A stretch of DNA of 20,994 bases from positions 1 to 20,994 of the IMG/VR virus record IMGVR_UViG_3300013094_000337; one strand, 5' to 3'. The notes beneath the pieces are model-generated. The model ran no database searches. It saw only the letters and a program-made list of their open reading frames with translations, and was not told the DNA's origin. Within the stretch, counting starts at the first letter, position 1; every line of letters starts with the position of its first letter. Shown one piece after another: positions 303 through 20,994 of this stretch. Origin of the DNA: a virus. A program made the translations under genes and the position numbers.

Positions 303-318
303 ATGTAAATATTTACAT
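303..318. promoter_or_regulatory. 16-bp perfect palindrome in the divergent terL/nucleotidyltransferase gap
   Basis: The sequence atgtaaatatttacat is a perfect inverted repeat in the 36-bp gap between two divergent genes. Each strand reads TAAATAT, close to the T4 late promoter core TAAATA, so it could serve as a back-to-back late promoter. It could also be an operator. The symmetry is seen directly; either function is inferred. Confidence 0.4.
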
Positions 319-321
319 AAT

Positions 322-1371
322 ATGTTACCTTCTGCAAATAAGCTTACCTTTGAATACCACGATTCGTTAAATCCGGTATTGTGGCAGAATGGTAAACTTA
401 AGCCTGAAATAAGAGAAAAATTACTAGAAGTAGCGCAAGCGTTTTTAGAGTTTGTAGAAGTTACCATTGATGTAGAAGATATTACCTTAACTGGTTCGTT
501 AGCTAATTTTAACTATACAGAATATAGTGATATTGATCTACACATATTAACAGATTACAATGATTATAATATAGAGAAAGATTTGCTTAAAGATTATTTC
601 AAAGCTAAAAAGACTGTTTGGAATAGCTCCCACAACGTTAAAGTAAAAGGGTATGATGTTGAAGCTTATATACAAGATGTATCTGAACCTCATCACTCTA
701 CCGGGGTATATTCTATAAAGCACGACGATTGGTTAGTTAAACCAGTTAAGGCTGGTGCAGTAGATAAAAAAGCATTACTCAAAAAGGTCGATTCAATGAA
801 AGAGCTTATTAAACACGCATTAAGTGATAAATGCGATGTAGAGTGTGCTGAAAATGTAAAAGACAAAATACTTAAAATGAGACAAGCCGGGTTGGAAAAG
901 TCTGGAGAATTCTCTATTGAAAATTTAGCATTTAAAGAACTAAGACGTACAGGCGAGATAGACAATCTAATTAAAGGTGTAATAGCTAAAACCGATAAAG
1001 AACTTTCATTAAGTCAAGAAAACTTTAAAAGCTTTTTTGGTATACCAGGAATGACCGGTGAGAGAAAGCCACGTGGTCCAAGACACCAGGCTCCATTAGC
1101 TGGGGTAAGAAGATTAATGAATCCTAATGCTAAGACTGTTGGAGTGGTAGCAAAAATGCATACGGATAGAGAAACGCCTTTCTCTCAAATAGAAAACCTT
1201 AAGAAACAGAAACAGGGTAAAGTACCGATAAATCCAACTTTAGCTGCTACAATAGCTCGTTTCTATGATATTAATTTCGATAAAGTAAAAGAGAAACCAC
1301 GTGGTTTAAGTACTAGTGGCATATCGTTAATGTATGATCCAGTGTTTAAAGCGTATTTTTTAACTAAGTAA
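322..1371 (+). CDS. Nucleotidyltransferase-like (pol-beta fold) phage protein
   Basis: The N-terminal half carries the signature of the DNA polymerase beta-type nucleotidyltransferase superfamily. GSL at residues 58-60 is followed nine residues later by SDIDLH at 69-74, giving the two metal-binding aspartates D70 and D72. A third acidic position is plausible at E114 in YDVEAYI. Residues 200-232 hold a conserved-looking helix with FKELRRTGEID. The C-terminal third (about 245-349) is rich in Lys and Arg, including RKPRGPRHQ near 248-256, and could bind nucleic acid or another virion component. Proteins of this type occur in marine T4-like phages, but their substrate is not known to me. It heads the rightward tail block and ends 5 bp before the next gene. 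No Shine-Dalgarno precedes the ATG. The fold call is good; the role is open. Confidence 0.72.
   Translation: MLPSANKLTFEYHDSLNPVLWQNGKLKPEIREKLLEVAQAFLEFVEVTIDVEDITLTGSLANFNYTEYSDIDLHILTDYNDYNIEKDLLKDYFKAKKTVWNSSHNVKVKGYDVEAYIQDVSEPHHSTGVYSIKHDDWLVKPVKAGAVDKKALLKKVDSMKELIKHALSDKCDVECAENVKDKILKMRQAGLEKSGEFSIENLAFKELRRTGEIDNLIKGVIAKTDKELSLSQENFKSFFGIPGMTGERKPRGPRHQAPLAGVRRLMNPNAKTVGVVAKMHTDRETPFSQIENLKKQKQGKVPINPTLAATIARFYDINFDKVKEKPRGLSTSGISLMYDPVFKAYFLTK
1365..1371 (+). promoter_or_regulatory. TAAGTAA, variant of the recurrent upstream motif
   Basis: The motif overlaps the last codons and stop of the previous gene and lies 5 nt before the ATG at 1377. It differs from TAAGTAT at the last base. 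Because it is partly coding (Lys-stop), chance cannot be excluded. Confidence 0.25.
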
Positions 1372-1376
1372 TAACA

Positions 1377-2456
1377 ATGCCAACTCAACTAGATCCAACA
1401 CCTACACCGACTCCTACACCAGTACCTACCTCTACGCAATCTTCAGCTGGAGCGTATTGGGGTGATTTTGCTAAAAAACAAGGGTCAAGAATTGCAAAAA
1501 ATGCACCTGGTGCAATGATAGACTTTGCTAGACGGTTAGGCGGGGGTAAGCCTTCTACCGAACAAAAGGGTGTTGAAATATATGTACCATCTACAAGACT
1601 TTTAATAAGCTATATTAATAAAGCTCAACCGACGGTTGATGCCACCAACCGTGTCACGGTTGATGGGGTATTAGATGATCGACCAGTAATAACTGTAGAA
1701 TATCTTTTAAGAGCTGGAGATAACGTTTTACCAGCAGATGCTAAAAATAAAATAAAAGAGTATTTAGTTAAATTAAACGAAACAGAAGCTTTAGTTTTAA
1801 AGTCTCAAACTCAAACAGAAAATGAGACAGTAAAAATAATTTACTCAGCTGAAAAAAAGTTATGGGTTGCATTTGCTACAGCGACATCTTACGAGACAGC
1901 ACAAACGGCTAAACAATTGTATGCAGCATTACCTTTAGATGACGCTATAAAATTTATAAACGATAATGGTATAAAACTTGCTGGGTATGCAGAAAAAATG
2001 CTTCCATTAGATATTAATGCAATAGAAAACTATAATCCGGCGAACACTGACGTTACAACCGAATTTTTAAAAAAATTAAAAGACTGGAAGGGTACGGGTA
2101 ATCAAAAAATAGTTAATACACTTAGAAAAGAAATTACTTTTTTAGTACATAGTAATAACACAATCGAGATATTGACAGCGCAAGATGAAATAAAGCGAAC
2201 AGGTATTACAGCGAAGGATGTTGCAAGGCATCAACAAACTATTTCTATAGGCTATGTTAAAGGGGTAGAGTCTAATGGTAAAGGAACAAATGAACCGAAA
2301 GCTGGTATATTTGCTTATAAATCTGCGGGGCCGGATAGTTTTAATAGTACAGCAACACCACCAGCAAATCAAGATCAAATCGGTCAAACGAATTTACCGT
2401 TCCAACAAGAATCATTTAATATTACATTTAATAAAGCTCTTAAACGGTTTGAATAA
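1377..2456 (+). CDS. Uncharacterised virion-block protein with Pro/Thr-rich N-terminus
   Basis: I do not recognise this 359-residue protein. It opens with a Pro-Thr dipeptide repeat (residues 6-18, PTPTPTPTPVPTS), a likely flexible linker, then a basic stretch around 33-60. The centre (about 65-260) looks like a mixed alpha/beta globular domain. The C-terminus ends in FNITFNKALKRFE after a polar, Asn/Gln-rich segment. There is no signal peptide or membrane span. It lies 5 bp after the nucleotidyltransferase gene and 2 bp before a tube-fold gene, just upstream of the sheath. That is where T4-like phages keep neck and tail-completion genes (gp13, gp14, gp15, gp3), so a neck or tail-terminator role is a guess from position only. 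Confidence 0.6.
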   Translation: MPTQLDPTPTPTPTPVPTSTQSSAGAYWGDFAKKQGSRIAKNAPGAMIDFARRLGGGKPSTEQKGVEIYVPSTRLLISYINKAQPTVDATNRVTVDGVLDDRPVITVEYLLRAGDNVLPADAKNKIKEYLVKLNETEALVLKSQTQTENETVKIIYSAEKKLWVAFATATSYETAQTAKQLYAALPLDDAIKFINDNGIKLAGYAEKMLPLDINAIENYNPANTDVTTEFLKKLKDWKGTGNQKIVNTLRKEITFLVHSNNTIEILTAQDEIKRTGITAKDVARHQQTISIGYVKGVESNGKGTNEPKAGIFAYKSAGPDSFNSTATPPANQDQIGQTNLPFQQESFNITFNKALKRFE

Positions 2457-2458
2457 AA

Positions 2459-3076
2459 ATGGCTGATCCAACACTACAGCAGTCTATTCTTAACAAGAGT
2501 AGGAAAGATAAATTTATCTTGGTATTAAATTTACCTGATGCTCTTAAGAAACTTAATAAAGCCGGTCAATTAGTTAGAACCACTGAAACATTAAATTTAG
2601 ATGCTTTGCAGTATTCTATATACGGTACTGTTGTACCGCAAAGTGGTATACAACCAGTAAACCTACCTTACGGTGGTCAATTTTTAAATCTTACAACAGG
2701 GAAAAAAGATGACTGGGCTGCTATTACGGTAAATTTTACAGTAGATAACGGATTTAACAATTGGTGGGTATTGTGGAAGTGGTTAAGTTTTATTAACGAT
2801 CCGGAAAAGAGTATAATGGATTCGGATAATTTAACACCGGCAACAAAAACCTCTTTAGATAAAGTATTGTATACAAGTACCAGTAATTTACAACCATACC
2901 AGGCTGACATAACAGTATACGGACTTGATGAGTATAATAACAAAAAAATCCAATGGAATTACTCAAAAGCTTTTATAACTGGGTTGGCGGGAATATCGTA
3001 CAGTTACAGGGATGCAGAACAAATGGAGTCTTCGTTTACGTTTACGTTTAGTCAGCTCGTCGCAGAATTACTTTAA
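2459..3076 (+). CDS. Tail-tube-fold protein upstream of the sheath (tube paralogue or tail terminator)
   Basis: This 205-residue protein shows the same element order as the tail tube protein at 5436. It has an early strand (FILVLNLP, 19-26) and a strand-turn near 50-60 (LQYSIYGTVVP). The pattern ITVNFTVDNGFNNWWVLWKWL at 89-109 parallels the tube protein's strand plus helix (VTFRNDKGG...LEDW). The C-terminal part (149-200) has DITVYGLDEYNN followed by strands ending FTFTFSQL, as in tube proteins. The match is by eye and moderate. It sits between an unknown and the sheath, so it may be an end-of-tail (terminator) ring or a tube variant. The ATG follows the previous stop by 2 bp with no Shine-Dalgarno, which suggests translational coupling. 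Confidence 0.55.
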   Translation: MADPTLQQSILNKSRKDKFILVLNLPDALKKLNKAGQLVRTTETLNLDALQYSIYGTVVPQSGIQPVNLPYGGQFLNLTTGKKDDWAAITVNFTVDNGFNNWWVLWKWLSFINDPEKSIMDSDNLTPATKTSLDKVLYTSTSNLQPYQADITVYGLDEYNNKKIQWNYSKAFITGLAGISYSYRDAEQMESSFTFTFSQLVAELL

Positions 3077-3102
3077 TAATTAAGGGTTTCGTTCCGGAAA
3101 TG

Positions 3103-3124
3103 CCTAAATAATAGTATAATACTA
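3103..3124 (+). promoter_or_regulatory. Candidate promoter region of the sheath gene
   Basis: Two signals lie in the 50-bp gap. CCTAAATA (3103-3110) matches the T4 late promoter TATAAATA at 6 of 8 positions and sits 16 nt before the ATG. The perfect dyad TAGTATAATACTA (3112-3124) contains a TATAAT hexamer (3115-3120) without a convincing -35 box. Either could drive this presumably highly expressed gene. Confidence 0.4.
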
Positions 3125-3126
3125 CT

Positions 3127-5415
3127 ATGGCAACTACCAAACGCGACATTAATTCCCCAGGCGTTCAAATCCGCGAAATCGACCTTAGCACAAGAGCAGT
3201 AGCACCAAACGGTACAAGTGTACTAGTTACAGGTTTTGCGCCTCAAGGTCCAACAGCGGAAATTGTTAACGTTTCAACACTCGCTGAATTTCAGACAATA
3301 TACGGTACACCTACTAATGCAGCTGAACGTTATTTTTATTATTCAGTTAACCAGATTTTTCAAGCTGGTACCAATACACAGGTAAATGTTGCTCGTTTAC
3401 CATACGGTGTAGGTGCAGGTGACGGATTTAATGGTAATAATAGCTATACAGCTTTACTTTATCCAGTAGTTCCTGTTAATACCGGTTCTTCTAACAATAC
3501 GTTTGCTTTAGCTACTTCAGCAGGTTCAACAGCAATAGCTCTTAGTGCTGCTACTGAGTACTGGATTACAGCTCCTATTTTAATTTCATTAAATGAATCT
3601 GATTATAATGCAGTAAAACAAAACAATATTACCTGGTCGTCAACCGGTGCAGGTGCTGGTAGTGCACCAGGTTACTCTTCAATAAGTGATATTGGTAGAT
3701 TCGGTATTATTGTATTAAATGAAGCCAAAACAACTATCAACGAAAAATTTGAAGGTTTTTATATTAACGTAACTGATTCAACAAGTTTCGGACCAACAAC
3801 AAATTACGATTCTGCATTAAGCATTTATTCTATTAACGGTGCTTCTGTTTACGGTAACGCTCCAGCTACTCAAGTGCCTGCTTCTACCCTTACATTTAGC
3901 GTAAGTTCTGCAGCAAATAGTAACATTGATTCAGTATCATTTGCAATTGAAAACGTACCAACGTTTAACATTTCTCCTGGTAGCGGTTATGAAGACGAAG
4001 CAGTATTAAGTGTTGTAAAAGTTAGAACAACACCGTTTGCTAATAACAGTACAGCTTTAACATATAGCTTACAGGAAGGTTATACCGGTTCATTATATGC
4101 TAACCGTACATTGCAAGATCCAAATGGTGGTGCACCTATTACAAACTTTATTAGTAACATTATTAATAATGCATCAGCAAATGTTAGCGTATATGTAAAT
4201 CCAAATATTTCTACTGCTACTGGCTGGTTAAAAGATGATGGTACAGCATTAAAGAAAACAAAAGTGTTACGCACTACTACTAACGGTTATGGTGCTGCAA
4301 ATTATCTTTATGCAGTTGGTGCATATGCTCCTTCCTTAGATAGTATAAACTATAATACAAAACTTATTGGTTCAGTTGCTACTAAACTTGATTATATTCT
4401 TAACGTTGCTGAAAATGCTGAAGTTTACGATTTAGATATTGTTGTTGATGCTGGTCTTACAACTGTTGCAGCTGTAACTGGTTTATATGATGATACATTG
4501 TACTCGTCTACCCTACAAACAACGATTAACACTAACTTAACTGACACTTCTGGTAATTACTCTCCATTTGCAGGTGACGCAGTAGATAGCTGGAGAACGA
4601 TTACAAACAAGTTTGTAGACTTTGCACAATTCCGTCGTAAAGATTGCGTATTCATTTCAGATCCTTTACGTCAAATACTCGTACAGGGTGAAAACTTTAA
4701 AGTATTAGATGATAAGTCAAAGAACTTCTCACTCAATGTTTACTGGCCGCTACGCAATAGTTATAACATTTATAACTCAAGCTATATGGCAGCATACGGT
4801 AACTGGGGTAGAACAGTTGATCAATATACTGGTAAACCAGCTTGGTTACCATTCTCAGCATTTGCTGCAGCAATTTATTCAACTAACGATGCTGTAGCTT
4901 ATCCTTGGGGTGCACCTGCCGGTCTAAACCGCGGTGTTGTAACCGGTATTAGCGATTTAGCAATCAACCCACAGCAGAAACAACGCGACTTACTTTACAA
5001 AGTGTCTATTAACCCTGTAGTTAACTTCCCTAATGAAGGATTTGTAATTATGGGTCAAAAGACAATGCTAAAGACTCCTAGCGCTTTTGACCGTGTTAAT
5101 GTACGTCGTCTATTCTTATATCTAGAAAAGTCAGTACTTGCTACAACAAAGTATTTCGTATTCGAACCAAATACAACGTTTACTCGTAACCGTTTGGTTA
5201 ATACAATTAGCCCTGTATTTGACTTAGCTAAGAACACTCAAGGCATTTACGACTACTTAATTGTATGTAATGATACTAACAATACACCTGATGTTATTGA
5301 TGATAACTCGCTTGTTGTAGATATCTATATTAAGCCAGTTCGTACAGCAGAGTTTATCTTAGTAAACTTCTACGCAACTCGTACAAGTCAGAACTTCCAG
5401 GAGTTACTACAATAA
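3127..5415 (+). CDS. gp18: Contractile tail sheath protein (T4 gp18-like)
   Basis: This is the subunit of the contractile sheath around the tail tube. The N-terminus has the sheath signature SPGVQIREIDLS (residues 10-21) followed by a Gly/Val strand region (VLVTGFAPQGP, 33-43). The C-terminus (about 735-762) has the interlocking strand pattern RTAEFILVNFY. At 762 residues it is longer than T4 gp18 (659); extra Asn/Ser/Thr/Gly-rich sequence between about 110 and 430 is probably a surface insertion. Arginine codons here are mostly CGT or CGC, whereas the flanking nucleotidyltransferase gene prefers AGA, which fits selection for high expression. The gene stands alone behind a 50-bp leader with promoter-like elements, and the tube gene follows 20 bp downstream, the T4 18-19 order. 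Confidence 0.93.
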   Translation: MATTKRDINSPGVQIREIDLSTRAVAPNGTSVLVTGFAPQGPTAEIVNVSTLAEFQTIYGTPTNAAERYFYYSVNQIFQAGTNTQVNVARLPYGVGAGDGFNGNNSYTALLYPVVPVNTGSSNNTFALATSAGSTAIALSAATEYWITAPILISLNESDYNAVKQNNITWSSTGAGAGSAPGYSSISDIGRFGIIVLNEAKTTINEKFEGFYINVTDSTSFGPTTNYDSALSIYSINGASVYGNAPATQVPASTLTFSVSSAANSNIDSVSFAIENVPTFNISPGSGYEDEAVLSVVKVRTTPFANNSTALTYSLQEGYTGSLYANRTLQDPNGGAPITNFISNIINNASANVSVYVNPNISTATGWLKDDGTALKKTKVLRTTTNGYGAANYLYAVGAYAPSLDSINYNTKLIGSVATKLDYILNVAENAEVYDLDIVVDAGLTTVAAVTGLYDDTLYSSTLQTTINTNLTDTSGNYSPFAGDAVDSWRTITNKFVDFAQFRRKDCVFISDPLRQILVQGENFKVLDDKSKNFSLNVYWPLRNSYNIYNSSYMAAYGNWGRTVDQYTGKPAWLPFSAFAAAIYSTNDAVAYPWGAPAGLNRGVVTGISDLAINPQQKQRDLLYKVSINPVVNFPNEGFVIMGQKTMLKTPSAFDRVNVRRLFLYLEKSVLATTKYFVFEPNTTFTRNRLVNTISPVFDLAKNTQGIYDYLIVCNDTNNTPDVIDDNSLVVDIYIKPVRTAEFILVNFYATRTSQNFQELLQ

Positions 5416-5423
5416 CCTTAACA

Positions 5424-5430
5424 TAAGTAT
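5424..5430 (+). promoter_or_regulatory. TAAGTAT motif before the tail tube gene
   Basis: TAAGTAT lies 5 nt before the ATG at 5436 in a 20-bp gap. It differs by one base from the TAAATA core of the T4 late promoter. A late-promoter role is inferred from recurrence at other genes of the block. Confidence 0.45.
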
Positions 5431-5435
5431 TTAAT

Positions 5436-5957
5436 ATGTCACAAACAATACAAGACTTCTTTCGAGTAGCACAAGCAAGAGATTTCGCAAGAGATTATAT
5501 GCTACGTGTTGTATCTTTAGGTAATGATACATTAAACGAAGATGATTTCGTTTATATTACCACAACACAACTACCCTCAAGAGATATTAGCAATCAAACT
5601 GCTACGTATATGGGATTAGATTTCAACTTCCCTGGTACTGTAAAGTATCCAGGTAGCAATGGTTGGAATGTTACTTTCCGTAATGATAAAGGCGGTATTA
5701 TTCGCAAGAAATTAGAAGACTGGCAAATTAACGGAGTATTTGATGATGCAACAAGCACAGGTAATCTTTCAGTAAGAGGTCCTGAATCAATTATTCAGTT
5801 AAATCTTGTAGATGATAAACTAAATGTTCTCAACACTTATAAACTTTTTGGAGCTTATATTCAAAAATTAGGTACTGTTGATTACAATGTAGCAGGTACT
5901 GGTGCACCATTAACGTTCACTGCCCAGCTAGCTTACCACTACTGGAGACACGAATAA
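5436..5957 (+). CDS. gp19: Tail tube protein (T4 gp19-like)
   Basis: This is the major subunit of the inner tail tube through which DNA passes. Its 173 residues match the usual gp19 size (T4 gp19 is 163). Visible family elements are the N-terminal helix and strand (FFRVAQARDFARDYMLRV, 8-25), TTQLPSRD (43-50), the strand-helix unit WNVTFRNDKGGIIRKKLEDW (77-96), the strand IIQLNLVDD (119-127), and the closing GTVDYNVAGTG...FTAQLAYHYW (146-170). It follows the sheath directly and is followed by a strong terminator, as expected for an abundant product. The product of 7549 shares its N-terminus (MSQT.QDF) and is a clear paralogue. This one is the best candidate for the true tube subunit because of its minimal length and its position after the sheath. 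Confidence 0.88.
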   Translation: MSQTIQDFFRVAQARDFARDYMLRVVSLGNDTLNEDDFVYITTTQLPSRDISNQTATYMGLDFNFPGTVKYPGSNGWNVTFRNDKGGIIRKKLEDWQINGVFDDATSTGNLSVRGPESIIQLNLVDDKLNVLNTYKLFGAYIQKLGTVDYNVAGTGAPLTFTAQLAYHYWRHE

Positions 5958-5981
5958 GATATATTAAAGTTTAATCCTATT

Positions 5982-6007
5982 AACCCGGCTCATATTGCCG
6001 GGTTTTT
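5982..6007 (+). terminator. Rho-independent terminator after the tube gene
   Basis: An 8-bp perfect GC-rich stem (AACCCGGC at 5982-5989, GCCGGGTT at 5997-6004) with a 7-nt loop is followed by further T residues to 6007. It ends the sheath/tube transcripts and separates these abundant proteins from the low-copy baseplate genes. A TAAGTAT motif for the next gene follows 13 bp later. Confidence 0.9.
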
Positions 6008-6020
6008 AGTGTACGTATAT

Positions 6021-6027
6021 TAAGTAT
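6021..6027 (+). promoter_or_regulatory. TAAGTAT motif after the terminator
   Basis: TAAGTAT lies 4 nt before the ATG at 6032, directly downstream of the strong terminator. Transcription must restart or read through here, so this is the best-placed promoter candidate of the series. Confidence 0.5.
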
Positions 6028-6031
6028 TAAT

Positions 6032-6811
6032 ATGGCCGAAACAGGACAACAGTCTAGCCTGGGATATACTACATCTAATGATCTATTAAAAACGTATCAA
6101 AGATTGGGTGGAATTGCTTGGACTTATCAATTTCAAGTTAAGGGAATATATAAAACCGGTGGTGGTGCGGTACCTGGTTTTGAATCTACTAGTGTTCTTG
6201 CAACTAAATTACCCGGTAAAAAACTTAATAACGCTACTGTATCTTACGGAGCATTTGACTTTAATGTTCCTATGAATACCGTGTTTCCGGATAATTTAAA
6301 CTGGGCGTTAACATTTTTAAGTGATCAAAAAGGCTTGATAAGAAATTTTTACGAATTATGGCAAGATAGTTTTTATAATTTTAATACTCAACGGTCTAAT
6401 GGAAATCAACTATATGATATAGAATTATCTTACGGTACAGGTACTGCTACTAAGGCTACAATAAATGTACTAAAAGGCTTTGTAAATGATTTTAAAAATA
6501 GTGGTAAGCCGTTAATAACCCCTGATGAAATAGATAATATAGAAAAAAATAATGAAATTGATAGTGATGTAATAGTTTCTTACACCACTGACATTCGTCT
6601 ACCGTCTGATTTGAGAGATAAAATAATAAACGCTTTGAACAAAGCTGACCAGACAGAACCTAGTAGCGTATCTACATATACACTTTATGGTTGTTTTCCG
6701 GTGTTATTAAACGGGTTAGATTTTGACACATCTCAAAAAAATTTAATAAAATTCACTGTTACTTTAGCGTATCAATATTTTAAAAAGGGTAGTAGATCTA
6801 AATCACAATAA
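6032..6811 (+). CDS. Tail-tube-like protein, enlarged paralogue
   Basis: This 259-residue protein keeps tube-fold landmarks: ATKLPGKKL (57-65), FDFNVPMNTVFPDNLNWALTF in the 75-95 region aligning with the tube protein's FNFPGTVKYPGSNGWNVTF, a following DQKGLIRNFYELW helix (98-110), and a C-terminal strand pair ending FTVTLAYQYF (241-250). An acidic, polar insertion at about 155-210 separates the last strands. A diverged tube protein at the baseplate end, comparable in role to T4 gp54 or gp48, is a reasonable inference, but which ring it forms is unknown. The gene begins after the terminator and a TAAGTAT motif and is 3 bp from the next gene. Confidence 0.65.
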   Translation: MAETGQQSSLGYTTSNDLLKTYQRLGGIAWTYQFQVKGIYKTGGGAVPGFESTSVLATKLPGKKLNNATVSYGAFDFNVPMNTVFPDNLNWALTFLSDQKGLIRNFYELWQDSFYNFNTQRSNGNQLYDIELSYGTGTATKATINVLKGFVNDFKNSGKPLITPDEIDNIEKNNEIDSDVIVSYTTDIRLPSDLRDKIINALNKADQTEPSSVSTYTLYGCFPVLLNGLDFDTSQKNLIKFTVTLAYQYFKKGSRSKSQ

Positions 6812-6814
6812 ATT

Positions 6815-7525
6815 ATGAGCACATTAACAGAGTTTTATTTAGATACATCTCAGCACGGGTTTAGTAAAGACTATCAAATATGTATAGGGGGGCTAAATTT
6901 GGGTGGTAATTTTTCAAAACAAAAAGATGCGTGGTTTAATTCATATTTTAAATCTGTTGCAATACCAGGTTTAAAAACGTATACCACTTTTCTCGAGGTG
7001 GGTGGTGGTAGAGTGCCGTTTTCAAACAATATACAGACTCCTGCAGGAGAATCTATTTTAACATTAACGTTTTCTTGTGATGAATCTCAAGAAATATACC
7101 GTTTGTTTAAAGCTTCAACTAAATCAAACCCGGGTGATATTTTAGTATTAAATTTATTAGACGGTGCGGGTGCATATATAAAATCGTATAAGTTTAAGAC
7201 CGATAACGGTTTTAGCTGTATAGGTGTAAGTGATTTAAAATACGATAAAAGCGGTACAGGTAAAATACTTGAATTTAATGTACAGTTCAAATTCGTAAGC
7301 TTTGATGAATATGTTGATAATAATTTTCTTGGAGCTAGAATTGCTGACAGCATAAACCGCGGGCCTTTACCTAATAATATAAAGTTTTCTAAAGGCGCTA
7401 AACAAGATAATAATCCACTTAAAGATATACTTAAAACAATTAATACTGTTACACAAGGATTAAAAGGTGTACAGACGGCTGCAACTGCAATAAAAAGTTT
7501 AGGTAGAGCTGTACGCGGTAGATAA
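6815..7525 (+). CDS. Tail-tube-like protein with helical C-terminal tail
   Basis: The first 165 or so residues of this 236-residue protein follow the tube pattern. They show an N-terminus TEFYLDTSQHGFSKDYQI (5-22) related to those of 5436 and 7549, FKSVAIPGLK (45-54), LTLTFSCDESQEIYRLF (82-98), a strand ILVLNLLDG (109-117), and VSDLKYDKSGTG...FNVQFKF (138-160). A 70-residue extension follows, ending in a Thr/Val/Ala-rich helix (about 202-236) with TVTQGLKGVQTAATAI and a terminal RGR. The 7549 product ends in a similar segment, so the two are duplicates that share a specialised tail. Codons are AGA-rich. It is spaced 3 bp after the preceding gene with no promoter-like motif. Confidence 0.65.
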   Translation: MSTLTEFYLDTSQHGFSKDYQICIGGLNLGGNFSKQKDAWFNSYFKSVAIPGLKTYTTFLEVGGGRVPFSNNIQTPAGESILTLTFSCDESQEIYRLFKASTKSNPGDILVLNLLDGAGAYIKSYKFKTDNGFSCIGVSDLKYDKSGTGKILEFNVQFKFVSFDEYVDNNFLGARIADSINRGPLPNNIKFSKGAKQDNNPLKDILKTINTVTQGLKGVQTAATAIKSLGRAVRGR

Positions 7526-7537
7526 GATATCTCTTAC

Positions 7538-7544
7538 TAAGTAT
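7538..7544 (+). promoter_or_regulatory. TAAGTAT motif before the 7549 gene
   Basis: CTAAGTATA lies in a 23-bp gap, with TAAGTAT ending 4 nt before the ATG at 7549. Spacing and sequence equal those at 6032, 10705 and 12579. Confidence 0.45.
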
Positions 7545-7548
7545 ACAT

Positions 7549-8226
7549 ATGTCTCAGACCTTACAAGATTTTTACACAACAGCTTCTTCAAGAGGCTTTA
7601 GTAGGGATTTTCAAATAAGAGTAGAAAGTATTTTTATTAACGGAGAATCCTTACCGTCCGATTACTTAAATTATGTAAAAACAGTAAGTCTACCTTCTCG
7701 TAAAGTAGAAATTAACACCATAACATACAACACGGTTAAAGTACCGGTTAGTACAGGTATTTCAGATTTTGGTAATAAAGACAACTATCAGATTTCTTTT
7801 TGGGCTGACCAGGCTCTAGAGTTTAGAGATTGGTTCTATGATAGAGCAGAAGCTACAGACACACCAGGAACACCAATGTTTCCTAATACTTTAGGTTCAA
7901 ATTTAATACAAATAAGTGTATTAGATGATATGTTAAACCCTGTATATGGATGTCAGTTAGAAGGGGTAACTATAAAAGAAGTTAGTGATATAAAATACAC
8001 TAAAGAGGGTACAGGTAAACCGCAAGAGTTTAGTGTAACATTTGCATATTATAGAGTTTCACCTTATACAAGTAAAGCTACTGATGTAAATAGTAATCCA
8101 GGTGGGTTTTTAGGAGCAATACAAGACCTCACTAGCGGTATTAAAACTGTCACTCAAGGTGTTAACGCGGTAAGGGGCTTAGCAACTGCTGCACGCGGGG
8201 CTTCTAATGCTATTAGAGGTAGATAA
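7549..8226 (+). CDS. Tail-tube-like protein with helical C-terminal tail (second copy)
   Basis: This 225-residue paralogue of the tail tube begins MSQTLQDFYTTASSRGFSRD, position by position close to the tube protein at 5436. Further landmarks are VKTVSLPSRKVE (43-54), the strand-helix unit YQISFWADQALEFRDWF (80-96), LIQISVLDD (119-127), and VSDIKYTKEGTG...FSVTFAYYRV (145-170). Residues 185-225 form a Gly/Ala/Thr-rich tail with TVTQGVNAVRGLATAARG and a terminal RGR, similar to the tail of the 6815 product. A role as a tube-baseplate adaptor ring is inferred. Its stop overlaps the next start (TAATG). The AGAGGT at its end would act as a Shine-Dalgarno for that next gene, one of the few in the block. 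Confidence 0.7.
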   Translation: MSQTLQDFYTTASSRGFSRDFQIRVESIFINGESLPSDYLNYVKTVSLPSRKVEINTITYNTVKVPVSTGISDFGNKDNYQISFWADQALEFRDWFYDRAEATDTPGTPMFPNTLGSNLIQISVLDDMLNPVYGCQLEGVTIKEVSDIKYTKEGTGKPQEFSVTFAYYRVSPYTSKATDVNSNPGGFLGAIQDLTSGIKTVTQGVNAVRGLATAARGASNAIRGR

Positions 8227-8927
8227 TGACTCTTGATATACCTAATTTTCTTCCGTTAATAAATAGTAGGGAATATAGTATTCCTATTGAAGCTAATTTT
8301 GCTGTAACTATAGAAAATTTATTTGAACCAAATTCAGGTATATTAGATAAATTAGGTAATGTAGAGGAAATTATATCACCTTCTAAACCTTTCGTAGGGG
8401 TACTTAATAGTGATTTTTGGAATGATTTGCCGAACAGCTTAACTAAAGCGGGTATATTTTTTGCAAACAGTGTGACTGTACCCGGAGAAAGTTCTTCAAC
8501 CGCTAGAGTGGGTATGGCTCAGGTAAACAACCTGTTTGGTGGTTTGTTATCAGCCCCTATACTTAAAGGACGTGCTGATGCAGCTAATTTAGATATAAGC
8601 TTTATTGAAACTAATATGTCTTTTGTGGATTCAGTAATGAGACCTTGGAGTATAGCTACCTCTCAATTCGGTTTATTTGCTAGAGAACCAACTTCGTGGC
8701 AAAACTTTAAAACTAATGTTTCGATAAACTATCTTAATAAGAGAGCATACTCAGACGAAGATTATAGTATAAGAAAAAGAATAACTTTTTTTGATGCAGC
8801 ACCAGTTAGTGTAGAAGGTTATACATCCAAATACGGTGCAACCGGTGCAAATGTACAAACAAGAACTTCGAAAACTAGTTGGGTGTATTCAACTTACGCA
8901 ATCGAGTATCCAGCATTTGTAGAGTAA
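8226..8927 (+). CDS. Diverged tail-tube-fold or baseplate adaptor protein
   Basis: This 233-residue protein lacks the MSQT-type N-terminus of its neighbours but shows a comparable strand pattern: FFANSVTVPGESSSTARVGM (78-97), ANLDISFIETNMSFVDSVMRPW (119-140), and C-terminal strands including RKRITFFDAAPVSVEGY (183-199) and WVYSTYAIEYPAF. The order (PG turn, strand, helix with a Trp, long paired strands) is that of gp19-fold proteins. It is translationally coupled to the 7549 gene through a TAATG overlap with an upstream AGAGGT, so near-equal production of the two is likely. Which baseplate or tube component of T4 it corresponds to cannot be decided by eye. Confidence 0.5.
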   Translation: MTLDIPNFLPLINSREYSIPIEANFAVTIENLFEPNSGILDKLGNVEEIISPSKPFVGVLNSDFWNDLPNSLTKAGIFFANSVTVPGESSSTARVGMAQVNNLFGGLLSAPILKGRADAANLDISFIETNMSFVDSVMRPWSIATSQFGLFAREPTSWQNFKTNVSINYLNKRAYSDEDYSIRKRITFFDAAPVSVEGYTSKYGATGANVQTRTSKTSWVYSTYAIEYPAFVE

Positions 8928-8941
8928 TACACAGACTGTTA

Positions 8942-8948
8942 TAAGTCT
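8942..8948 (+). promoter_or_regulatory. TAAGTCT, degenerate upstream motif
   Basis: TAAGTCT lies 6 nt before the ATG at 8955 in a 27-bp gap. One base differs from TAAGTAT, and spacing is slightly longer than at the other sites. Confidence 0.3.
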
Positions 8949-8954
8949 ATTGTA

Positions 8955-9872
8955 ATGCCTTTCACGTTAAATGCATATCTTCCTAGCTTTAAACAGGATG
9001 TATCTGTTTATGAACTCAATTATAAACAATACAGAGATCTTGTAAAGAGCCTTTATAATAGTAATAAAAAAGAAACTATACAGCAATACAATTCGATAGT
9101 AGCAGATTTGTGTCCATTTATAAAGGATAGAGATACAACCTTTGAAGATAAGCTTTCTATACTGCTAACATTAAGAAACTTTTGTATAAGTCCGGATTTA
9201 AAATTAAAGGGTACAGCAGATAAGGATACGTTTTATCATACAGTAACAATTGATAATTTATTAAAGGAAGTAAGAACAATTAATAAATCCGCTACAATAG
9301 TTATAGATAATATTACTGTAGATATATCTTCTTATAAAATGAGAGACGAACAGGTTTTCGCTGGAAATAACAAAGATATAACCATTATCTTAGCGTCTTA
9401 CATAGATACACTTAAAATTGATAATGACAAGGTAGAATTTAAGGATTTAACGATAGAAGAAAGAGTGAAAATAGTAAACTCTTTACCATATGCATTATCG
9501 GATAAAGTATACGAGAGTATAATACAAACTGAAAATTATTATGACTCGCAAGAACTATTAGTTGTAGCTAATCCTCATACAGATGAAGCTGTGTTGAGGT
9601 TATCTAAAAACATTACATTCGAGGTACTACAAAAAATGATAGAGTTTTTGTTCACTGAAGACCTTGGTAATGTGTTTAGAGCGTTTTATAATATGGTAAA
9701 ATTTGCTGGGTTCTCTCCAGAATACATTGATAGTATAACACCAGTAGAAATGCAAGTGTATTGGATGTATTATATGCAAGATCAATCCGAAAAACAAAAG
9801 AGCACTAGTACAAACAATTCCGGTGCAATGTTGCCATCTACAAGCTCTCCTAATGCAGAATTGGGCTTTTAG
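8955..9872 (+). CDS. gp26-like baseplate hub assembly chaperone with C-terminal extension
   Basis: The N-terminus (NAYLPSFKQDVSVYELNYKQYR, about 6-27) followed by a helix with DKLSILLTLRNFCIS (65-79) matches the pattern of T4 gp26-type hub assembly proteins (a 'LPS.gk...' opening, then a conserved LL.R helix). The tandem gene at 9896 has the same plan, including the later DLTIEERVKIVNSLPYAL segment (164-181). The C-terminal 80 residues (about 221-280) form an extra helical part with TPVEMQVY at 262-269. That resembles the P.E..+Y pattern of gp51-like chaperones, so this may be a gp26-gp51 fusion. The last 25 residues are Ser/Asn-rich and probably disordered. The position just before the tape measure gene fits a tail assembly chaperone. 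Confidence 0.6.
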   Translation: MPFTLNAYLPSFKQDVSVYELNYKQYRDLVKSLYNSNKKETIQQYNSIVADLCPFIKDRDTTFEDKLSILLTLRNFCISPDLKLKGTADKDTFYHTVTIDNLLKEVRTINKSATIVIDNITVDISSYKMRDEQVFAGNNKDITIILASYIDTLKIDNDKVEFKDLTIEERVKIVNSLPYALSDKVYESIIQTENYYDSQELLVVANPHTDEAVLRLSKNITFEVLQKMIEFLFTEDLGNVFRAFYNMVKFAGFSPEYIDSITPVEMQVYWMYYMQDQSEKQKSTSTNNSGAMLPSTSSPNAELGF

Positions 9873-9883
9873 TACACCCCCAG

Positions 9884-9890
9884 TAAGTAG
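9884..9890 (+). promoter_or_regulatory. TAAGTAG, degenerate upstream motif
   Basis: TAAGTAG lies 5 nt before the ATG at 9896 in a 23-bp gap. The last base differs from TAAGTAT, while the spacing equals that at 5436. Confidence 0.35.
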
Positions 9891-9895
9891 AATTT

Positions 9896-10672
9896 ATGGC
9901 TAGCATTACAAATATTATATCTTCTCTTAACTCTATTACAGAAAAGAGTTCTTTTAACGTTTATATACCATCTTTAAAAAAAGAGGTTAGGTTTAAGCCA
10001 CTTTCAACTAAACAGCAGCAATCGTTTTATAGTTGTGTGGTTGACATTGTACCTTTTTATACTAGGTTTATTATTGCTACATTTAATATAATTTCAGAAA
10101 ATTGTACAGAACCGGCTATTATATCGCAATTGAATGTTTTTGATAGATTGGTTATTCTATTAGCGTTGCGTAAAAATACATTAGGTTCCAGTATTGCTAT
10201 AATAAAAGACAAAGTACAGTATGTTAGTGATTTTGATATCTGTTTTGAAAATGCAAAAACATTAGACATACCAGATAGCAAATCTGTAAATTTAGGTAAC
10301 ATAATCGTAGAATTACAGGTACCCCGTGTTGTTGATCAATATGTTTTAGAAAAAACGTTAAGAGAGAACGTAGATACAAGTAAAATGAATCCTGATACTA
10401 TTATTAGTCAATCGGTATTAGGTGAAACTAGTAAATTAATTAAGAGTGTTAAACTTGTACAAGAGAATGAAACTATTGACGTAAACTACGAGCAATTAAA
10501 CGTAAAAGATCGGTTTACAGTATTGGAAAATTTACCAGCTGAAATAATGATTGAAGTACAGCAATATGCTAAGCTTGTATCTCAAACAACGGATAAGCTA
10601 TTAACGGTTAATATTACAGAAGATAAAACTGCTATATTTGATATTACTGTGGATTTCTTTTTGAGTAAATAA
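9896..10672 (+). CDS. gp26-like baseplate hub assembly chaperone (second copy)
   Basis: This 258-residue protein parallels the product of 8955: NVYIPSLKKEVRFKPLSTKQ (21-40) against NAYLPSFKQDVSVYELNYKQ, FDRLVILLALRKN (82-94) against FEDKLSILLTLRNF, and LNVKDRFTVLENLPAEI (201-217) against LTIEERVKIVNSLPYAL. It lacks the C-terminal helical extension of its neighbour and stops soon after FDITVDFFL. Tandem duplication followed by division of labour is the simplest reading. T4 uses separate gp26, gp28 and gp51 around the hub, so the two copies may correspond to two of these. The ATG is chosen because it follows TAAGTAG at the usual distance. Confidence 0.58.
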   Translation: MASITNIISSLNSITEKSSFNVYIPSLKKEVRFKPLSTKQQQSFYSCVVDIVPFYTRFIIATFNIISENCTEPAIISQLNVFDRLVILLALRKNTLGSSIAIIKDKVQYVSDFDICFENAKTLDIPDSKSVNLGNIIVELQVPRVVDQYVLEKTLRENVDTSKMNPDTIISQSVLGETSKLIKSVKLVQENETIDVNYEQLNVKDRFTVLENLPAEIMIEVQQYAKLVSQTTDKLLTVNITEDKTAIFDITVDFFLSK

Positions 10673-10693
10673 CGTAAAGTTCAGCTTCATTGC

Positions 10694-10700
10694 TAAGTAT
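10694..10700 (+). promoter_or_regulatory. TAAGTAT motif before the tape measure gene
   Basis: CTAAGTATT lies in a 32-bp gap and TAAGTAT ends 4 nt before the ATG at 10705. Its presence supports the ATG at 10705 as start over an in-frame TTG at 10690, which would place the motif inside the gene. Confidence 0.45.
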
Positions 10701-10704
10701 TTCT

Positions 10705-12570
10705 ATGGCAGATAACTCAGCAAGCACCTCTAACGTTGTTAATAAAAACGATGCTGGAGGACTACCTGACAAAGAAGCGTGGCAACGCTTTCTTGAAACA
10801 TATCGTGGCAATGCAGGAATGGTACAACCTGTTAATCAACCGGATACGACAGTAAAAGATGCAATACAGTCTGTTGCTAAACAGTTACAAGCAAATACAG
10901 AAAAGATAGCTGAATTTACTAAATCTGTCGCTCAATTATCGGATAGAGTCAGTACAAGTAAACCCAATCAAGAAACTGCTGATATAGTAGCTAGAAGAAT
11001 TAGAGAAGAATGGGATGCAGTTAAAAAAGATACTGGTTTAGTGGGTGGTTTTATAGACCAGGTTACTAAAGGCGGGTACACAAAGCTACTCAATACAATG
11101 GAACTGGGAGCACTAAGGAATGCTGGAGTGGTTCCAGAATCTAATCTCAAACCTGATACTACAAGTAAAACCGATGAACAGATAAAAGAAGGTGAAATAA
11201 GAGAAGAAGAACGTAGTACAGGTATATCTAAAAAAATGTACCGGGTTGAGCTAGCTAAAATTAGCGATAGCGTAATGAGTGATTTAGAAGATTTATTAAA
11301 TCAGGAATTAAAAAAACTTTGCGAGTGTATTTGTGAATGTCAAAACGGTAGTCCTCAAAGACTTCCAAGAGTACCGATAGAGTCCCCAGTAAGTGCACCG
11401 GTAAAGCCGCCTGTAACAGTGGGTAGCCCTGGTATAAAGGAAACCCACTCTGTTGGTGTACCCGCTCCTATAGCTTCAGTACTAGTTGCAACCAATACAG
11501 AAGTAAAGACTAAACCAGGAAACGAAGAAGTAAGGACTGGTAAAGGTGCTGAACACACAGAAAATAAGCCTACAGAAGATATAAAAACTCACGGCTGGTG
11601 GGAAGACGTAGGTAAACCTGTTTTAGAGCTTGCTGGTATAACTGCATTAGCATCAGTAGCATTACCTGAAATTTTAGCAGCTGCAGGGGTTGCAGAAGTA
11701 ATCGCATTAGCTACGGGCGCAGCTGAAACGGCTGCAACAGTAGCAGAAACAGCTGCGGTGGTAGCAGAAACAGCTACAACAGCGACAGAAACGGCTGCAA
11801 CAGCGACAGGGGTGGCTGCGGATGCTACTACGACTGTTAAAACTGCTGTAGACGCTTCAGAATTTCTTATTGCACCGGCAGAAGCTTCAGAAGGACTAGA
11901 AGCAACTGAAGCGGTTTCCTATTTAGATAAATTAAATAAAGTAGCACCGGGTTTGATACAAGGTGTTAATGTATTACCAGAAGCTGAAGTAACTGCAGAA
12001 GAATTAGCAGCTGTAGATAAAGTCTTGAGCGCTGTACCCATAGCAACTGTACCTGAAACAGCTAGCCTGGTAGGAACTGGCACGACAGCGCTGGGTGTTG
12101 GAGTGGCTGGTGTTGGTGGTTATACTGCATTAGCAGCTACACCCGCGCTTAAAGCTGTTGCTGGTGTACCTGAAAGTATAAACGGATTACCAGTGTTATC
12201 GGATGAACAATGGAGAGAAAGGGGTTATAGTCCAAACGGTCTAGAAGGTACCTATACTAAATCAACAGCTAATGTTAGTGCAGCAGGGCAAAATACCCCT
12301 ACATTTAATGTCGCAGCAAAGCCGCAAACTGAAACATCTGATTTTTATCAGGATTTCTTAAATGTTACTAAAGAATTTCATAACGATGTAAAGCAACTTA
12401 TAAACAATAAGACGTTTGAAGATAAAGGCAGCCTTTCTAACATTGTTAATAAGGGTGGTAACAAAACATATAGTAATACGTATAATATCAGAACATACGC
12501 CGGGGACGGAATTGCTTCTTTGAGAAAAGATACTGATATGTTGTTATATAAACTCAGTACTATGAATTAA
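10705..12570 (+). CDS. Putative tape measure protein (T4 gp29 position)
   Basis: The assignment rests on position (after the hub chaperones, before a gp48/54-like gene), length (621 residues; T4 gp29 has 590) and composition. Residues 45-110 and 157-205 are charged and helical with coiled-coil character. Four cysteines alternate at 206, 208, 210 and 212 (CECICEC), unusual for a phage tail protein and able to bind metal or form disulfides. A Pro-rich linker (about 217-245) follows. Residues 305-385 are Ala/Thr/Val-rich and hydrophobic, with five heptad units from residue 340 (AETAATV, AETAAVV, AETATTA, TETAATA, TGVAADA). A second Gly/Ala segment spans 455-487, and the C-terminus (545-621) is helical and polar. 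At about 1.5 angstrom per residue it would set a tail of roughly 93 nm. No enzyme domain is seen. Confidence 0.55.
   Translation: MADNSASTSNVVNKNDAGGLPDKEAWQRFLETYRGNAGMVQPVNQPDTTVKDAIQSVAKQLQANTEKIAEFTKSVAQLSDRVSTSKPNQETADIVARRIREEWDAVKKDTGLVGGFIDQVTKGGYTKLLNTMELGALRNAGVVPESNLKPDTTSKTDEQIKEGEIREEERSTGISKKMYRVELAKISDSVMSDLEDLLNQELKKLCECICECQNGSPQRLPRVPIESPVSAPVKPPVTVGSPGIKETHSVGVPAPIASVLVATNTEVKTKPGNEEVRTGKGAEHTENKPTEDIKTHGWWEDVGKPVLELAGITALASVALPEILAAAGVAEVIALATGAAETAATVAETAAVVAETATTATETAATATGVAADATTTVKTAVDASEFLIAPAEASEGLEATEAVSYLDKLNKVAPGLIQGVNVLPEAEVTAEELAAVDKVLSAVPIATVPETASLVGTGTTALGVGVAGVGGYTALAATPALKAVAGVPESINGLPVLSDEQWRERGYSPNGLEGTYTKSTANVSAAGQNTPTFNVAAKPQTETSDFYQDFLNVTKEFHNDVKQLINNKTFEDKGSLSNIVNKGGNKTYSNTYNIRTYAGDGIASLRKDTDMLLYKLSTMN
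11720..11821 (+). repeat. Degenerate 21-bp tandem repeat encoding Ala/Thr heptads
   Basis: Units of about 21 bp built on gcagaaacagctgc-type sequence occur four to five times and encode AETAATV-like heptads of the putative tape measure. The near identity of the units suggests recent slippage or unequal exchange, which would change protein length in steps of seven residues. Confidence 0.65.
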
Positions 12571-12574
12571 GTAT
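12568..12574 (+). promoter_or_regulatory. TAAGTAT motif overlapping the tape measure stop codon
   Basis: The TAA stop of the preceding gene is the first three bases of TAAGTAT, which ends 4 nt before the ATG at 12579. The motif is kept although the gap is only 8 bp. Confidence 0.45.
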
Positions 12575-12578
12575 ACGT

Positions 12579-13976
12579 ATGCCCGATAAATCAAATTCTA
12601 CTGGCCCTGTACAGGATGATACAAGTCAACCACCTAATTTAAAGGGCGGAGCACCAGAATTAGAAAAAAATCTGTCGTTTAATGTACATAGGGATTATCC
12701 TTGGACATTAACTCCGGCTAACTCTCAATTAAGAAAATACGTACCACAACTAGAATTAATAGAATATGATCTACAATTTTCTGGTGAAGTACAATCGATA
12801 AAAACTTTATTAAACGCAACACTCAATTCAAAATACGCTCAGAGCGTAGTAGCAGGTGTTGGCGCAGCAACAGGGGCATCTGTAGCTACCGGGGCTTTGA
12901 ACCTGGCTGAGCAAATCGCCGCTGGTGGAGGGGGTGGACAGGGTCAAGTAGCACAGAAGATTGCCACAATAGCAACTAATGGTGGTGTACAAGTAGTAGC
13001 TGCTACAACCGGGGCTGTAGTTGGATATGGACTCAGTGAAGCAACTATGAAACAAATACCAAGCCTTACCAATCTTGATTATTTAGCGCCGTATAAAAAT
13101 TTATACCCCGCTATACCAACAGGTAATACATACTATTTACCGTATTTAAATGTAGAGAACTTTACTAATGTGAGCGGGGTATGGGGAAGTGTAGAGTTGA
13201 ATAGAATAACAACTGCAGCTACTACTGTTGCAGGGGCTGGAGGTGCTATAGCAGGATTAGCATTCGGAGAAGCAGCTAGTTTAAAATTTGACAAGCAATT
13301 AGCTGGTGCTCTAGAAATATTAAAAGGTATACAAAATGTTGCAGAACTAGAATTTGCATTACGAGCACCAGGAGCAAGTATTGAAAATATAAAGAAGTTT
13401 AAACCAAAAGAAGATGGTGATACGATTGCAGTAACATTTTATCTTTACAACACTCAAACTCAATTAGATATAGTTAATAATTGGAAGTTTTTATACTACT
13501 TAACGTATCAAAATTTACCAAATAGACGTAGTATGAGTTTGCTTGACCCGCCTTGTGTGTATGAAGTAAACGTACCCGGTTATAAAAGGTTTCCTATAGC
13601 TGTAATTGAATCATTTAATGTTACTAATGAAGGTACTACTCGCTTGATAGATATTACTACTGGAGAAATGAGTACATATTCAACAGGTAGCACTAATAAT
13701 AATATAAAGATAGTACCAGAAGCATATAAAGTAAGCATAACGTTTAAAAGTTTATTAACTAGTACTCGTAATTTATTACGTTATTCTAATGATCAATCTA
13801 AAATTACGGTTACTGATCAATCTCCAGAGGGTTCATTAGGTACTGGAGATAACAAGTTTAATAAACCGAAACCCCCAGAAAAATCTAAACCAACACCACC
13901 ATCGCCTCCAGCGCCGGAAGCAGCTCCAGCAATACCAACATCCCCGCCTAATCCTAACGGGGTACTCACAGATTAA
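12579..13976 (+). CDS. Baseplate tail-tube cap/initiator-like protein (gp48/gp54-like)
   Basis: The second half of this 465-residue protein has the pattern of tube-junction baseplate proteins: DTIAVTFYLYNT (281-292), a Trp-containing helix NWKFLYYLTY (301-310), PPCVYEVNVPGYKRFPIAVIESFNV (about 324-348), and VPEAYKVSITFKSLLTSTRNLL (379-400). In T4 gp48 and gp54 form the platform on which the tube polymerises. Two Gly/Ala-rich hydrophobic stretches (about 88-155 and 211-235) are inserted before this domain; they look like tape-measure-type or membrane-active segments and are unusual for this family. The last 40 residues are Pro/Lys-rich and probably disordered. The gene lies between the tape measure and gp53-like genes, consistent with a baseplate role. 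Confidence 0.55.
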   Translation: MPDKSNSTGPVQDDTSQPPNLKGGAPELEKNLSFNVHRDYPWTLTPANSQLRKYVPQLELIEYDLQFSGEVQSIKTLLNATLNSKYAQSVVAGVGAATGASVATGALNLAEQIAAGGGGGQGQVAQKIATIATNGGVQVVAATTGAVVGYGLSEATMKQIPSLTNLDYLAPYKNLYPAIPTGNTYYLPYLNVENFTNVSGVWGSVELNRITTAATTVAGAGGAIAGLAFGEAASLKFDKQLAGALEILKGIQNVAELEFALRAPGASIENIKKFKPKEDGDTIAVTFYLYNTQTQLDIVNNWKFLYYLTYQNLPNRRSMSLLDPPCVYEVNVPGYKRFPIAVIESFNVTNEGTTRLIDITTGEMSTYSTGSTNNNIKIVPEAYKVSITFKSLLTSTRNLLRYSNDQSKITVTDQSPEGSLGTGDNKFNKPKPPEKSKPTPPSPPAPEAAPAIPTSPPNPNGVLTD

Positions 13977-13979
13977 CCT

Positions 13980-14339
13980 ATGGACGGACAAAAACAAAAT
14001 AGTATAGACGCTTTACCTAATCTTAATTCGTTAAGATTGGAAAACCTGTTTAAAGTGTATAATGATAATAAAAATTATTATTATAATATACTAGGTACTG
14101 TTAACATACCTAACGAGATTGATGCTAGCACGTATACTACATTTACGGTAACTAGTGATTATATGCCCTGGACTCATATTTCACAGAAAATATACAACAC
14201 ACCAGAATTATGGTGGTTAATTTGTTCTACCAACAACATACAGAATCCAATACAATTTCCAAAAGCAGGTACAGTATTAAAGGTATTACTACCAAATTAC
14301 GTAACAAGTATTTTACAACAGTTAAATAACACTCAATGA
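13980..14339 (+). CDS. gp53: Baseplate wedge protein (T4 gp53-like)
   Basis: This 119-residue protein has the gp53 hallmark in its second half: WTHISQKIYNTPELWWLI (64-81), then the NNIQNP turn (85-90) and PKAGTVLKVLLP (94-105). This is the LysM-like arrangement by which gp53 clamps wedges to the hub in T4. Residues 20-60 form the N-terminal strands. At 119 residues it is shorter than T4 gp53 (196), mostly because the N-terminal arm is reduced. It starts 3 bp after the previous stop, and its own stop overlaps the next start by 4 bp (ATGA), so it is translationally coupled to the hub gene. Confidence 0.75.
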   Translation: MDGQKQNSIDALPNLNSLRLENLFKVYNDNKNYYYNILGTVNIPNEIDASTYTTFTVTSDYMPWTHISQKIYNTPELWWLICSTNNIQNPIQFPKAGTVLKVLLPNYVTSILQQLNNTQ

Positions 14340-20812: not shown

Positions 20813-20821
20813 GAGGTTTTT
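20789..20821. terminator. Bidirectional rho-independent terminator overlapping a gene end
   Basis: A 10-bp stem with one C-A mismatch (AACCTCCCAC at 20795-20804, GTGAGAGGTT at 20809-20818) closes a CGAA loop. It is followed by T5 on the plus strand and, read on the minus strand, by T8. It serves the small plus-strand gene, whose stop codon TGA (20810-20812) is in the descending arm, and the convergent gene ending at 20846. Confidence 0.9.
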
Positions 20822-20845
20822 AAATTATCAATTAACTAAGTTTTA

Positions 20846-20994
20846 TTAGAACTTATAAGCGTAACCTACATTGTAACCAGTGATTTGAGAAGCTGTGCTT
20901 GTGAAATCACCACGATGTACGAATAAGTTAGCCTGTAAGCCTTTCCATTCAAGGCCTGCACCAGCTGTTGCATACTTTTTATTAGCAGCAAAAG
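20846..20994 (-). CDS. C-terminus of an outer-membrane beta-barrel-like protein (runs off right edge)
   Basis: Only the last 48 residues are present; the start lies beyond the window. The sequence has strand pairs typical of transmembrane barrels: KKYATAGAGLEWKGLQANLF, then a turn with RGDF, then ITGYNVGYAYKF. The final strand has alternating aromatic or hydrophobic residues (Y, V, Y, Y, F) and a terminal Phe, which is the outer-membrane insertion (beta) signal of porins in Gram-negative bacteria. A phage-encoded outer-membrane protein could alter receptor exposure or permeability of the infected cell. With only the C-terminus visible, a virion protein with a similar hairpin cannot be excluded. 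The bidirectional terminator lies 25 bp past its stop. Confidence 0.6.
   Translation of the reverse strand, partial: FAANKKYATAGAGLEWKGLQANLFVHRGDFTSTASQITGYNVGYAYKF

Follow-up and report, generated by a model that had tools for sequence, protein, structure and literature searches.

A TAARTA core beside late-gene start codons suggests gp55-type promoters for leaderless mRNAs in a freshwater clade of T4-type phages

The window analysed here is the whole stretch of positions 1-20,994 (20,994 nucleotides (nt)) of IMGVR_UViG_3300013094_000337, a linear virus record that is a fragment, and it carries a T4-type tail module with a sheath, several tail-tube paralogues, baseplate proteins and a divergent fragment of the large terminase. 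A short element, TAAGTAT, recurs a few nt before the start codons of these genes. Such elements are very probably gp55-type late promoters with the core TAARTA(T), which would give leaderless or nearly leaderless mRNAs. The original prediction for this DNA had preferred a late promoter to a ribosome-binding site, and that preference is favoured by the restriction of the core to genes that are late and that have an upstream gap, the exchange of A and G within it, its conserved position with a wall at -11, the missing -35 element, an adjoining conserved terminator, and the gp55 and gp45 genes of relatives. From these features we infer promoter activity, the exact transcription start (+1) and leaderless translation.

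Position and conservation of the core

Positions of the core are given as the distance of its first T from the ATG, and genes are named by their start coordinate. The five exact copies of TAAGTAT reported earlier, 4-5 nt ahead of the ATGs at 5436, 6032, 7549, 10705 and 12579, were all confirmed at their coordinates, and the variants TAAGTAA (1377), TAAGTCT (8955) and TAAGTAG (9896) are present as claimed. All seven plus-strand genes separated by 20 bp or more from the gene upstream (3127, 5436, 6032, 7549, 8955, 9896 and 10705) are preceded by the motif or a relative of it, and TAAGTAT precedes none of the seven genes that abut their upstream neighbour (2459, 6815, 8226, 13980, 14336, 15883 and 17112). 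The total number of copies in the whole window is not raised (9 seen, 10.5 expected), and therefore position alone counts: positions -11 and -12 ahead of the 17 plus-strand genes make up 34 slots, and these hold five of the six plus-strand copies (binomial P = 6.7e-14). The background in coding DNA, a check named by the original prediction, is low: among 1712 in-frame ATGs inside clade genes, 4 have a core at -10 to -13.

Relatives, designated by L and G numbers, were collected by sheath-based scans and range from ~30% to 82% sheath identity (the closest, L005, being 82% identical), with contigs of up to 140.7 kb and beyond. A search for near phage isolates found none, the best terminase and polymerase matches being ~31-36% identical. 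TAAGTAT-N3-6-ATG is present in 20 of 22 sheath-scan records. When upstream regions are tabulated orthologue by orthologue, the element is held at -11/-12 ahead of the same genes, with G in some cases and A in others as its fourth base; ahead of gene 5436, for instance, the window and G002 have TAAGTA, and L005, G004, L017, L023 and G003 have TAAATA. The core before 6032 is kept in place in L005, G004, G002, G017, G001, G023, G024 and G028, and the gene in the place equivalent to 10705 has TAAGTA at -12/-11 in G001 and G002. Ahead of the abutting genes 6815, 8226, 13980, 14336 and 17112, the core is missing in nearly all relatives; the 15883 orthologue carries TAAGTA in G004, G001, G016 and G017.

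In 822 upstream regions pooled from twelve contigs, TAAGTA (65) and TAAATA (55) outnumber every other hexamer at -11/-12 and are enriched 34-fold and 21-fold over local background, with the remaining one-base variants at or below about 5-fold; because the contigs are related and identical upstream sequences alone were removed, pooled counts are not independent events. The motif proposed as TAAGTAT stands as a putative promoter core in refined form, as TAARTA (R = A or G) rather than TAAGTAT alone. By distance, TAAGTA starts at -10 in no case, at -11 in 38, at -12 in 27 and at -13 in 13, followed by a shrinking tail to about -25, and TAAATA has the same wall at -11 plus a weak background nearer than that. 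The T4 late core spans -13 to -6 relative to the start site (PMC1524935, PMC2988020), so that a TAARTA starting at -11 would put +1 on the A of ATG, and a core any nearer would put it beyond the A of AUG. The profile stops sharply, at the base that T4 promoter geometry would set; a ribosome site would have no reason to end there.

The proposed mechanism is that host RNA polymerase with the phage sigma factor gp55, probably helped by the gp45 clamp, recognises the core and starts 11 nt downstream of its first T. With most cores at -11 or -12, +1 would fall on or beside the A of AUG and leave mRNA leaders of 0 to about 5 nt, the sheath gene keeping one of ~11 nt. Translation would then proceed from a 5'-terminal AUG without a Shine-Dalgarno (SD) site, and abutting genes would be internal cistrons of these transcripts.

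A rival already named by the original prediction takes TAAG for a weak SD sequence, with UAAG pairing to CUUA at the 3' end of 16S rRNA and the motif acting in translation. UAAG is indeed complementary to the extreme 3' end of 16S rRNA and the motif lies near start codons, but G changes to A at the same position in orthologues, and in all 23 sites of G003, which removes the pairing; this exchange at a fixed position therefore does not reflect SD pairing. By our own reasoning, TAAG at -11 to -8 is also about 4 nt too close to the start codon for that register. Moreover, the motif is lacking from abutting genes, those most in need of a ribosome site, and from 44 of 44 replication genes, and true SD cores do not exceed chance in the large contigs, which makes this explanation extremely improbable.

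The earlier remark that classical SD sequences are mostly absent is borne out across the clade. G001 has an SD in 2 of 160 genes, against 5.8 by chance (T4 late region, 30 of 53 genes), and among the clade contigs generally the frequency of the SD matches chance or falls below it in the large ones, or is not clearly above it. Leaderless mRNA is predicted from this absence together with promoter geometry. Sigma-70-like promoters in G001, G002, G004 and G023-G028 likewise have -10 elements whose starts peak 11-14 nt before the ATG. Because these promoters also abut start codons, the leaderless habit is probably general to these phages rather than specific to late genes, and is probably tied to the host. 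Early genes in the clade may be leaderless too, given the position of the sigma-70 -10 element. Two other candidate causes were rejected. Promoters of the Bacteroidota type (TTG-N-TAnnTTTG), as a reason for the missing SD, are in no excess (5 versus 5.0), and a phage bS21, as a cause of leaderless translation, was not detected in 14 clade or near-clade contigs, being found only in the pelagiphages HTVC008M and Mosig. A search for the host through gp55 in genome contigs returned a sole match, weak, partial and uninformative, in Methanosarcina.

Late-gene restriction, terminator and late-transcription machinery

Genes were classed through recognisable T4, S-PM2 or window homologues, with the core scored at -10 to -17, the range in which clade cores are located. 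It precedes 90 of 172 late genes and none of 44 genes of replication and nucleotide metabolism (Fisher P 1.7e-12). It also depends on the same-strand upstream gap: with a gap of at most 3 nt the core is present in 4 of 109 cases in the clade and 0 of 25 in G003, and with a gap of 4-60 nt in 70 of 143 in the clade. A -35 partner is in no clear excess at the cores (TAAGTA, 11 versus 10.5 expected; TAAATA, 16 versus 10.8), whereas TATAAT in the same place has one in 14 cases against 4.7 expected.

These results bear on a second rival, in which the element is a host sigma-70 -10 box for leaderless transcription, as in Actinobacteria or Deinococcus, with no late sigma factor involved. The clade's sigma-70-like promoters, with their -10 elements 11-14 nt before the ATG, lend it some weight, and bacterial leaderless genes with an adjacent -10 element are known (PMC3160421, PMC12340547). 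Against this, TAARTA is a poor -10 hexamer and lacks the -35 partner that TATAAT sites there possess; it is limited to late genes and identical to the T4 late core, and relatives carry a gp55 gene. A sigma-70 origin is thus very unlikely.

Additional evidence comes from an intrinsic terminator between genes 5436 and 6032 (Table 1), the top-ranked site of a scan of the window, although the scan overall gave no excess of such sites (12 versus 11.5). A hairpin and U-tract stand at the equivalent spot in nine contigs, with differing stem sequences, and TAAGTA starts within about 20 nt downstream of the terminator. From this position it follows that, barring read-through, transcription of 6032 has to start within the ~27 nt that precede the ATG. 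So narrow a space also weighs against a third possibility, namely that the promoter is real but the true +1 lies upstream, or 5' ends arise by processing, to give ordinary leaders. Some genes, such as the sheath gene, do keep the core at -22 and a short leader; however, the wall at -11 fits T4 start-site geometry and there is no SD for a leader to carry, so that ordinary leaders are highly unlikely.

The late sigma factor itself is encoded by relatives. In the 140.7-kb contig G001, a gp55 homologue (134626-135138, minus strand; PHROG_234, E 3.7e-18) sits between UvsW and gp47, an order also found in S-PM2, and has 420 matching stretches in viral contigs; G024 and G028 encode gp55 as well, likewise beside UvsW and gp47, and a gp45 clamp gene was found in G001, G002 and G025. 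The proposed link between gp55 and the promoters is one of homology and co-occurrence. As a separate observation, clade gp55 (G001, loci L138-L217) ends in ...DDPVNP and a polar tail, without the hydrophobic C-terminal clamp-binding motif of T4. No conclusion on a loss of that motif was drawn, since the S-PM2 C-terminus is also unlike that of T4.

Several points weigh against late promoters with leaderless transcripts. About half of the late-gene starts, mostly internal cistrons, have no core, and for cores 13 to 17 nt out, together with the one at -22 of the sheath gene, the expected leaders are 2-11 nt long, so that not every mRNA would be strictly leaderless. Gene starts were called simply at the first ATG, with homology and, in HTVC008M, the deposited annotation as checks. 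The window, being a fragment, has no gp55 of its own. Finally, the search for gp55-like and gp33-like genes that the original prediction had suggested succeeded for gp55 in relatives and not for the co-activator: gp33 (PHROG_254) was undetected in the six clade or near-clade contigs G001, G002, G003, G023, G024 and G028, although the same search found it in S-PM2 and HTVC008M. This may reflect loss, divergence or contig incompleteness.

Core sites and neighbouring genes in the window

Coordinates are collected in Table 1. The use of a core's TAA as the stop codon of the preceding gene, seen at 12568, recurs in 28 of 153 clade cores. Conservation differs among the less regular sites. The 9896 core is matched by TAAGTA at -11 in G028 and missing in several other relatives, and relatives have TAAGTA or TAAATA at -12 to -16 of the 8955 gene, or nothing. 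The spacing of the sheath core varies from -21 to -29 within the clade and is -11 in the distant G003. The TAAATAT half of the palindrome is kept at -16 in G004, G002 and G001. Gene 14336 has a TAAATA at -13, within the preceding gene, that no relative keeps.

Table 1. Putative late-promoter cores and associated features of the window
Feature	Coordinates	Strand	Context
Palindrome TAAATATTTA	306..315	both	Overlapping cores: plus 306-311 (-16 of ATG 322), minus 310-315 (-30 of terminase ATG 285)
Probable core TAAGTAA	1365..1371	+	-12 of ATG 1377; L005 has TAAGTA at -11
TAAATA core	3105..3110	+	-22 of sheath ATG 3127; predicted leader ~11 nt without SD
Tail sheath gene (late)	3127..5415	+	PHROG_23, E 3.5e-69
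TAAGTAT core	5424..5430	+	-12 of ATG 5436 (tail tube paralogue); 5 nt spacing; predicted +1 at -1 or A of ATG
Intrinsic terminator	5982..6009	+	Hairpin 5982-6004 plus U-tract; 8-pair stem
TAAGTAT core	6021..6027	+	-11 of ATG 6032; 4 nt spacing; predicted +1 at A of ATG
TAAGTAT core	7538..7544	+	-11 of ATG 7549 (tail tube paralogue); 4 nt spacing
Weak variant TAAGTCT, uncertain	8942..8948	+	-13 of ATG 8955
Probable core TAAGTAG	9884..9890	+	-12 of ATG 9896 (baseplate-hub-like)
TAAGTAT core	10694..10700	+	-11 of ATG 10705; 4 nt spacing
TAAGTAT core	12568..12574	+	-11 of ATG 12579; 4 nt spacing; TAA doubles as stop codon of gene 10705

Some neighbouring genes are unusual in their own right. PHROG_45, the tail-tube family, is matched by genes 2459, 5436, 6032 and 7549 and weakly by 6815, an unusual expansion of paralogues. 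Beside the terminase, positions 322-1371 encode a conserved protein of PHROG_36119 (unknown function) with a motif, GSLANFNYTEYSDIDLHI, that by eye was judged nucleotidyltransferase-like. At the far end, positions 20813-20994 on the minus strand hold the end of an open frame that by eye resembles the C-terminus of an outer-membrane barrel (...GYNVGYAYKF), with hairpin-like sequence before it. Among the relatives, G001 (L041) carries a tryptophan-halogenase-like gene at 13336-14805 (PHROG_2928, E 7e-104), in a T4-type phage contig.

Comparison with known late and leaderless promoters

T4 late transcription is a textbook system, and depictions of it invariably include a leader and a ribosome site. 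The clade cores share with T4 late promoters (TATAAATA, served by gp55, gp33 and gp45) the core sequence, the lack of a -35 element, the confinement to late structural genes and an AT-rich stretch after the core, and clade relatives have homologues of gp55 and gp45. They differ in that T4 cores lie 15-45 nt before the ATG (most at least 20), with a leader and an SD, whereas clade cores abut the ATG without an SD; in addition, position -8 of the clade core tolerates G, and gp33 was not found in the clade contigs searched. A late core fused to the AUG would make the promoter a start-codon selector, dispensing with the SD. In an abundant group of uncultured phages, TAARTA-N5/6-ATG could serve as a simple marker of true starts and of late transcription units.

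T4-type late cores drift between lineages, and Aeromonas phage Aeh1 uses CTAAATA (PMC1524935), as the distant relative G003 often does too; however, Aeh1 cores stand no nearer than -24, and most of the genes behind them carry an SD. The cores of S-PM2, P-SSM4 and AG-345-F15 likewise lie at -18 or beyond, with counts at -10 to -13 about chance or below, and in Rhodothermus phage RM378 the core is not enriched. Across T4, Aeh1 and cyanophages, most such cores lie between -18 and -45. Leaderless genes of Deinococcus-Thermus and Actinobacteria with an adjacent -10 box resemble the clade in having a promoter element a few nt before the ATG and a transcript starting at AUG, but the element there is the host sigma-70 TANNNT and here a phage late core. 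Among the matches listed for TAAGTAT in the open literature, no title reports a phage promoter of that sequence, and the open-access literature searched contained no earlier description of a late core joined to the start codon in T4-type phages.

The closest parallel in position comes from pelagiphages, in which TAAATA starts at exactly -11 ten times in HTVC008M (NC_020484) and five times in Mosig EXVC030M (MT647606). In HTVC008M, where gene starts are those of the depositors' annotation, most of these sites, which include those of the genes at 18943, 19456, 31132 and 49760, lie ahead of genes annotated as structural (DNA end protector, head closure, tail tube cap, baseplate wedge and tape measure, among others), and an SD is present in 1 of 13 short-spaced genes, compared with 68 of 145 others in that genome. 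The pelagiphages differ from the clade in using SD sequences for many other genes, in having gp33 (HTVC008M) and in encoding bS21 (both phages). A broader scenario, for which we judge the case evenly balanced, is that a large freshwater T4-type clade runs its whole lytic programme on leaderless mRNAs, sigma-70 and gp55 promoters both putting +1 on the start codon, with the SD unused, the core widened to TAARTA and gp33 perhaps lost, and that the same fusion arose, or was retained, at some pelagiphage late genes. The -11 TAAATA before SD-less genes of HTVC008M and Mosig is put forward as a candidate late promoter for cultured pelagiphages; the host of HTVC008M is in culture as well. A survey of pelagimyophages reported no success in predicting late promoters in their genomes (PMC7029224), perhaps because sites at -11 could escape a search designed for promoters with leaders.

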